Shown: in pieces, positions 17,491 through 18,787 of the stretch | How positions within the stretch are numbered: position 1 is the stretch's first letter | Layout of the letters: each line of letters starts with the position of its first letter | From: Acidimicrobiales bacterium | GTDB lineage: Bacteria > Actinomycetota > Acidimicrobiia > Acidimicrobiales > CADCSY01 | Assembly: GCA_035512495.1 (NCBI GenBank) | Contig: DATKDW010000015.1 | Coordinates: forward strand, 1 to 42,035 | Length of the DNA: 42,035 nucleotides | Direction: 5' to 3' | The notes under the pieces: model-generated | The model's database searches: none | What the model was told of the DNA's origin: nothing | What the model saw: the letters and a program-made list of their open reading frames with translations, nothing else | Translations under genes and position numbers: made by a program

Positions 17491-17889
17491 TTACTCCGTG
17501 CCGGCGTCTGCCGCCGAGGCCGCCACCGGCGAGGCATGGTGGACGACCATCCGCCACCTCTCCTCGTCTCGCACGAAGAGGTTGAGGGCAGCCATGGTGC
17601 CACCGACGCGAGCGTCGAGGAGGTTCTCGTCGAGCGACACCCAGGCCACGTCGCCGGTCTGCTCCACCTGCTCCCCGGTGAGGATGAACTGCATGCCCCG
17701 CCCGCCCTGGAACAGTGCGAAGAACGACGCCGAGATCGACGACCACCCTCGGAGGGTGACCCACCCAGGGTGGGTGCAGGTCGAGCGCTCGGAGTGCTCC
17801 CAGACCTCGGACATTGCGTCGAGGTCGGCCGCCTCGAATGCCTCGTAGAAGGACCGGTTGGCGGTGAGGACGGCGTCGTGGTCGCTGAT
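17491..17889 (-). CDS. SnoaL-like (NTF2-fold) protein with an apparent ATC start codon
   Basis: Small NTF2-fold protein, 132 residues if started at 17889. The N-terminal sequence (I/M)SDHDAVLTANRSFYEAFEAAD followed by LDAMSEVWEHSE and CTHPGW is the family's usual beginning, and it continues through GMQFILTGEQVEQTGDVAWVSLDEN to MVVHHASPV. The first conventional start, ATG 17814, would remove 25 conserved residues. The codon at the expected first Met is ATC, and the frame closes upstream with TAG. A -10 box (TAGGGT, 17901-17896) sits exactly 12 bases before the ATC, matching other leaderless genes here. GTG 17897 is out of frame and inside the -10 box. So either ATC is used, initiation falls at 17814, or a base was mutated or misread. 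The ligand is unknown. Confidence 0.75.
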   Translation of the reverse strand: MSDHDAVLTANRSFYEAFEAADLDAMSEVWEHSERSTCTHPGWVTLRGWSSISASFFALFQGGRGMQFILTGEQVEQTGDVAWVSLDENLLDARVGGTMAALNLFVRDEERWRMVVHHASPVAASAADAGTE

Positions 17890-17895
17890 GCCCGC

Positions 17896-17901
17896 ACCCT
17901 A
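17896..17901 (-). promoter_or_regulatory. -10 box TAGGGT of a leaderless-type promoter
   Basis: TAGGGT reads 17901 to 17896 on the minus strand, then GCGGGC, then ATC. The six-base gap equals that of the ATG-started genes at 291, 4787, 19474, 22409 and 29376. Confidence 0.5.
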
Positions 17902-17935
17902 CCGACGTGACCGACGGGCCCGGGGAGGTGCCAGG

Positions 17936-18787
17936 ATGGCGCCCATGCGCGTCCCCTCCACCGATGGTGTCGAGCTGACGGTCCACGACCTCGGTGGCGA
18001 CGGCCCGCCGCTCCTCCTGTGCCACGCCACCGGCTTCCACGGCAAGGTCTGGACCCCCATGGCGGAGTACCTCTCCAGCCGGTTCAGGCTCTGGTCGCTC
18101 GACTTCCGCGGGCACGGGATGTCTACGTCGCCCGTGGGCCGGGGCTTCGCCTGGGAGGGCTTCGGGGACGACGTCCTCGCCGTGGTGGACGCTCTCGGGC
18201 TCGACCACCTCGCCGGCATCGGGCACTCCAAGGGCGGCACCGCCCTGCTCCTGGCAGAGCAGGCACGGCCGGGCACCTTCACCTCGCTGGTGCTCTACGA
18301 GCCCATCGTCTTCCCACCCGACCTCGGACCGCCCGGCGGCCGGGGCGACGACAACCCGCTGGCCGCCGGCGCCGAGCGACGCCGGGAGGTCTTCCCGTCC
18401 AAGGAGGCCGCCTACCAGCACTACGCGGCCAAGCCGCCGCTCTCGGTCCTCGCCCGGGAGGCGCTGCGCGCCTATGTCGACCACGGCTTCGAGCCCCTCG
18501 GGGACGGCACGGTGCGCCTCCGCTGCCGCGGGGCCGACGAGGCCCAGGTGTACCGGATGGGTGGCTCCCACGGCGCCTGGGACGGCCTCCCGGGCGTCTC
18601 CTGCCCCACCACCGTCGCCACCGGCGGGACGGGCGGCACCATCAGCCCGGAGGTCGGCGCCCGCCTCGCCGCGCGGCTCGGGGCCGCGCGGCTCGAGGTC
18701 TTCGACGAGCTCGGCCACTTCGGCCCGCTGGAAGACCCCGGCCGGGTCGCCCGCTCGGTCGTCGCCGCCCTGACGGTGGCGCCATGA
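17936..18787 (+). CDS. Alpha/beta-fold hydrolase
   Basis: A 283-residue alpha/beta hydrolase. The oxyanion region LLLCHATGFHGKVW follows the first strands. DFRGHGMS is the usual loop. The nucleophile Ser is in GIGHSKGGTAL (about residue 98), and the catalytic His is in DELGHFGPLEDP near the C-terminus. The acid residue is probably in the strand before TGGTGGT but is not certain. The lid region (about 130-200) is not specific enough to name a substrate. ATG 17936 is chosen because GGGGAGG (17922-17928) lies seven bases upstream; ATG 17945 is possible. It overlaps the PAP2 gene by four bases (ATGA), so the two are co-translated. Together with PAP2 and WS/DGAT, a lipid-related ester or thioester substrate is a reasonable guess. 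Confidence 0.85.
   Translation: MAPMRVPSTDGVELTVHDLGGDGPPLLLCHATGFHGKVWTPMAEYLSSRFRLWSLDFRGHGMSTSPVGRGFAWEGFGDDVLAVVDALGLDHLAGIGHSKGGTALLLAEQARPGTFTSLVLYEPIVFPPDLGPPGGRGDDNPLAAGAERRREVFPSKEAAYQHYAAKPPLSVLAREALRAYVDHGFEPLGDGTVRLRCRGADEAQVYRMGGSHGAWDGLPGVSCPTTVATGGTGGTISPEVGARLAARLGAARLEVFDELGHFGPLEDPGRVARSVVAALTVAP

Follow-up and report, generated by a model that had tools for sequence, protein, structure and literature searches.

The window analyzed here is a whole stretch of 42,035 nucleotides from an Acidimicrobiales bacterium (assembly GCA_035512495.1, contig DATKDW010000015.1, positions 1 to 42,035), and it carries on its minus strand a gene for a SnoaL_3 (NTF2-like) protein whose reading frame appears to open with ATC. 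The minus strand reads ...gtcggTAGGGT GCGGGC ATC AGC GAC CAC GAC GCC GTC. A preliminary description, made from the letters of the stretch, had placed the start of a leaderless SnoaL-like gene at this ATC, after a −10-like box and in a frame closed upstream by TAG, and the minus-strand sequence confirms this arrangement. The hexamer itself supplies the in-frame stop, TAG (17901–17899), and the open frame starts three codons before ATC. Between this stop and the conserved first helix there is no ATG, GTG or TTG, and the first ordinary start in frame is, as had been described, an ATG 25 codons downstream (17814–17812). The out-of-frame GTG that had been noted at 17897 does lie inside the −10-like box and is not usable as a start.

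Counted from ATC, residues 7–123 match PF13474 (SnoaL_3) with E 6.6e-21 and a score of 75.3 bits (cut-off 22). The draft genome (2.8 Mb, 97 contigs) has a single copy of the gene, and of 397 genomes from the order, 109 contain a match; the nearest named relatives with the gene come from Acidimicrobiales and other actinobacterial metagenome assemblies.

The ATC codon and its orthologues

The distance between box and codon, expressed as the offset in bases from the first T of TANNNT to the codon, was surveyed in 639 kb of this genome and 774 kb from two relatives within the order, with genes called by a simple finder based on codon usage. In-frame ATG or GTG accounted for 263 of the 574 codons at offsets 12–14 (108/228 sites at offset 12, 96/195 at 13, and 59/151 at 14); their share was 10–11% at offsets 15–16 and about 1–5% at the remaining offsets. 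Six ATG/GTG starts of the window (291, 3004, 4787, 22409, 25289, and 29376) have the identical 12-base spacing, in agreement with the preliminary description, and the ATC of the SnoaL_3 gene thus stands where leaderless ATG/GTG starts stand. The gene therefore shows the leaderless layout, with TANNNT some 12–14 bases before the start. Within coding frames that have no earlier ATG or GTG, the codons ATC, ATA, or ATT occupied 8/75 sites at offset 12 versus 8/633 at control offsets (Fisher p 7e-5), some of the candidates being weak.

A comparison of the codon with orthologues, which had been proposed as a check, was made on 88 distinct sequences from the order, aligned on the conserved AN..FY motif. 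The codon after the −10-like box was GTG in 30 orthologues, ATG in 18, ATC in 20, ATA in two, GTC in two, and ATT in one, and the remaining 15 had no clear box. Non-canonical codons (ATC, ATA, ATT, or GTC) are thus found in 25 of the 88, 12–14 bases past the first T of TANNNT, as in TAGGGT GCAGGC ATA AGC (L032), TAGGCT CCCGCC ATC TCC (L003), TAACCT GCTGGC ATC GAC (L023), and TACGCT GCCACG GTC GAC (L004). At offset 12, 37 of the 39 in-frame codons are start-like (20 ATG/GTG, 12 ATC, two ATA, one ATT, and two GTC), and ATC occurs 20 times at offsets 12–14 but once elsewhere between offsets 8 and 24. Start-like codons, ATC among them, are more frequent at the box spacing than expected by chance.

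The preliminary description had left three options, namely an ATC start on a leaderless message, a recently mutated ATG, or a wrong base. The orthologues support the first. A sequencing or assembly error, or a start freshly broken in one genome, might be suspected in a draft of 97 contigs, but it can hardly account for ATC, ATA, or GTC at the equivalent place in other genera and families that were assembled independently, nor for a second gene that has ATC both in this genome and elsewhere in the order (see below); we rejected it on the evidence of the equivalent codons. The contrary outcome that had been named, in which all orthologues would begin at the residue of position 17814, was not seen: the N-terminal helix is kept, and codon changes in the non-canonical members are protein-like.

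The last point can be quantified. Differences among the non-canonical members at codon positions 1, 2, and 3 amount to 0.227, 0.288, and 0.421 in the N-terminal block, compared with 0.717, 0.696, and 0.692 upstream; the graded pattern in the block, set against a flat level of about 0.70 before it, indicates that the block is translated. Thirteen of the 25 non-canonical members lack any ATG, GTG, or TTG in the stretch from the preceding stop, or from 60 codons upstream, to the helix. Initiation at the ATG of 17814 (residue 26), which would turn the preceding stretch into an untranslated leader, is on these grounds very improbable. This ATG is the first ordinary start in frame, but the stretch before it holds the beginning of the SnoaL_3 match and is conserved as protein in the non-canonical members, and the phosphatase considered below offers no such escape, because its catalytic loop follows immediately after ATC. 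The codon-position test and the phosphatase together led us to reject internal initiation.

The orthologues also bear on the nature of the hexamer. TAGGGT could be read as a weak Shine–Dalgarno sequence (AGGG) that serves ATC on a leadered message, with a promoter unseen further upstream, and AGGG does lie a few bases before ATC here and before ATA in L032. Other members, however, have TAACCT, TACGCT, TAGCCT, or TAGACT at this place, so that TANNNT is kept and the run of G is not. We rejected the Shine–Dalgarno reading because the G-run is not conserved, and consider a leadered start improbable. A rapidly built tree, in which many forks are unresolved, requires about 8–9 switches between canonical and non-canonical start classes; both GTC members cluster with GTG, and an ATA member pairs with an ATG sister, the third base alone differing.

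Other genes with ATC at the leaderless position

A scan for ATC-type starts covered 953 kb of the 2.8 Mb genome and gave two clear cases, versus roughly 200 leaderless-type ATG/GTG starts. The second clear case is the gene for a low-molecular-weight protein tyrosine phosphatase (LMW-PTP), which reads TAGCCT CAGGCG ATC GAG ATC CTC GTC CTC TGC. In 27 of its 30 closest orthologues of the order, ATC lies 11–14 bases past a TAGACT-like box and usually six codons ahead of the catalytic Cys in CTGNxCRSP, and 15 of these 27 lack any in-frame ATG, GTG, or TTG over the 40 codons upstream of this cysteine, or as far back as the stop. The CxxxxxR loop is intact and would be lost with any later start, so the LMW-PTP start must lie in the region of the ATC. 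Relatives elsewhere in the phylum have ATG or GTG 6–8 codons before the Cys in 22 of 23 cases (one is unclear), and these relatives, all outside the order, often have the same TAGACT box, slightly further upstream.

A third and narrower case is a LivH-like permease, in which ATC is found in the five closest orthologues and a TANNNT box lies 12 bases before it in four of the five. MiaB, a leaderless-type control gene, starts with ATG, GTG, or TTG in 30/30 cases and with ATC in none (0/30). Two more ATC candidates of the genome (L128, minus strand, 10508; L147, plus strand, 10276) were set aside as uninformative, with a GTG four to five codons further on in each; most L147 orthologues align only from about residue 36–50 of the query.

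These counts bear on whether the codon is merely tolerated. If ribosomes throughout the order took any RTN triplet at the 5′ end, ATC-type starts could drift in low-demand genes without any regulation, and the several third bases seen in the SnoaL_3 family (ATC, ATA, ATT, and GTC), with switching to and fro, would suit such drift. ATC-type starts are rare genome-wide, however, and drift would not be expected to hold ATC in 27 of 30 close LMW-PTP orthologues; this near fixation argues against mere tolerance, which we regard as unlikely. Coordinates are collected in Table 1.

Table 1. Positions of the proposed start, the surrounding features, and the further genes with ATC. Plain coordinates refer to the window.
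Feature	Location	Strand	Basis or remark
SnoaL_3 (NTF2-like) coding sequence, 132 codons + stop	17491..17889	−	PF13474 match
Proposed start codon ATC and proposed mRNA 5′ end	17887..17889	−	12 bases past first T of TANNNT; orthologues have ATC/ATA/ATT/GTC or ATG/GTG there
Putative −10-like promoter hexamer TAGGGT, its TAG doubling as in-frame stop	17896..17901	−	Consensus match; TANNNT at equal spacing in orthologues; genome-wide enrichment ahead of ATG/GTG
First in-frame ATG, within conserved DLDAM motif	17812..17814	−	Unlikely start: first helix precedes
Out-of-frame GTG within −10-like box, unusable as start	17895..17897	−	Sequence
LMW-PTP	L117 (contig C7) 10844–10275	−	PF01451; ATC at leaderless position
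LivH-like permease	L167 14913–13975 (G050); orthologues L383–L387	−	ATC start, one family of the order

An alpha/beta hydrolase gene (17945–18787, plus strand) is divergent from the SnoaL_3 gene. The two start codons are 55 bases apart (17889–17945), and the two promoters must therefore abut.

Proposed initiation and a probable role of IF3

Judged by comparison of sequences, the use of ATC as a start is well supported: its position, its repeated occurrence, an N-terminus that is translated, and the absence of other starts all speak for it. We infer the mRNA 5′ end, initiator tRNA pairing, control by initiation factor IF3, and low expression. We consider it likely that these genes give leaderless mRNAs starting with AUC (AUA, AUU, or GUC in relatives), a codon retained as a weak start that is most likely limited by IF3. 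Transcription from the TAGGGT promoter would begin at or beside the A of ATC and yield an mRNA without a leader that begins with AUC. The initiator tRNA (anticodon CAU) would be accepted on this AUC with two bases paired and the third mismatched, and translation would begin there. Selection would keep the weak AUC-type start to hold expression low, and such a start would most likely place the gene under IF3, which disfavors both these codons and leaderless messages.

IF3 is known to disfavor starts other than ATG, GTG, and TTG, and infC itself uses such a start and is thereby autoregulated (PMC5472188); as told in the same paper, this start is ATT in E. coli and ATC in Streptomyces. Leaderless mRNAs are also inhibited by excess IF3 and favored in infC mutants that relax this inhibition (PMC9031893). 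The IF3 gene was found in 29 of 30 genomes examined here, and in every one of the 25 genomes of the order where infC (L306–L334) could be read, the gene opens with ATA (18) or ATC (7). The presence of IF3 together with these infC starts indicates that IF3 policing of start codons probably works in these genomes. The same two codons, ATA and ATC, recur there as starts on leaderless-type genes.

The SnoaL_3 and LMW-PTP genes resemble infC in having a conserved start other than ATG, GTG, or TTG (25/88 SnoaL_3 and 27/30 close LMW-PTP orthologues), and one of the same ATN kind. They differ in that infC has a Shine–Dalgarno-like leader sequence, found before the start in 23 of the 25 genomes, whereas the two genes have a −10 box in the place of a leader and encode no translation factor. 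Another actinobacterial gene with a conserved non-canonical start is Streptomyces sigR, which starts with GTC in 32 of 34 species and is repressed by IF3 (Feeney et al. 2017, PMC5472188). Its message has a strong ribosome-binding site (AGGAGGTG), whereas the SnoaL_3 message appears to be leaderless, and IF3 control has been demonstrated for sigR but is proposed here for SnoaL_3 and LMW-PTP. Two SnoaL_3 orthologues, L004 and L014, have GTC, the codon known from sigR, at the leaderless start.

The promoter arrangement itself is that of mycobacterial leaderless genes, in which the −10 box lies directly before the start with no leader (Shell et al. 2015, PMC4633059). The layout proposed here would thus combine a conserved rare start of the infC/sigR type with the mycobacterial leaderless arrangement and would break the RTG rule (ATG or GTG).

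Several observations weigh against this explanation. Leaderless reporters in M. smegmatis require ATG or GTG at the 5′ end, and ATC served there as the negative control (PMC4633059); the SnoaL_3 gene, with ATC at 17889, departs from that rule. Given the inactivity of ATC in these reporters, either this order has different ribosomes or a low level of initiation suffices. Twelve of the 25 non-canonical SnoaL_3 members have some ATG, GTG, or TTG further upstream in the open frame, unlinked to the −10 box, and are weaker cases, the least certain being L016, L020, L197, L217, and L229. Among five more distant LMW-PTP relatives within the order, four have ATG or GTG and one has ATC.

A broader proposal, which we put forward tentatively and with somewhat more doubt than conviction, is that this order of actinobacteria retains, as a set devoted to translational control, leaderless genes whose messages start with AUC (or AUA, GUC), codons regarded as inactive in leaderless translation, and that IF3 or some other feature of 70S initiation reads this set. 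If leaderless AUC starts are indeed used order-wide, they would break the mycobacteria-derived rule that leaderless translation needs AUG or GUG, and the third base of the start codon could grade initiation at a 5′ end. Automatic gene calling would, in that event, truncate or miss such genes. LMW-PTP makes a good test gene, because any ordinary downstream start removes the catalytic cysteine.

A search of the open literature, with subscription literature outside its scope, brought up no earlier description of conserved AUC starts on leaderless messages, in Acidimicrobiia or elsewhere. To our knowledge, very few genes with IF3-controlled rare start codons have been described, and those described have leaders. 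Non-canonical starts have reportedly been found by proteomics in Deinococcus deserti, which is rich in leaderless genes.

With regard to tRNAs, one Met tRNA was present in the sampled stretches (L341 12–85, minus strand). ARAGORN calls in the same genome, at L124 3–98 (−) and L353 7420–7515 (+), comprise a tRNA for selenocysteine and an unusual one whose anticodon has four bases (tcag).
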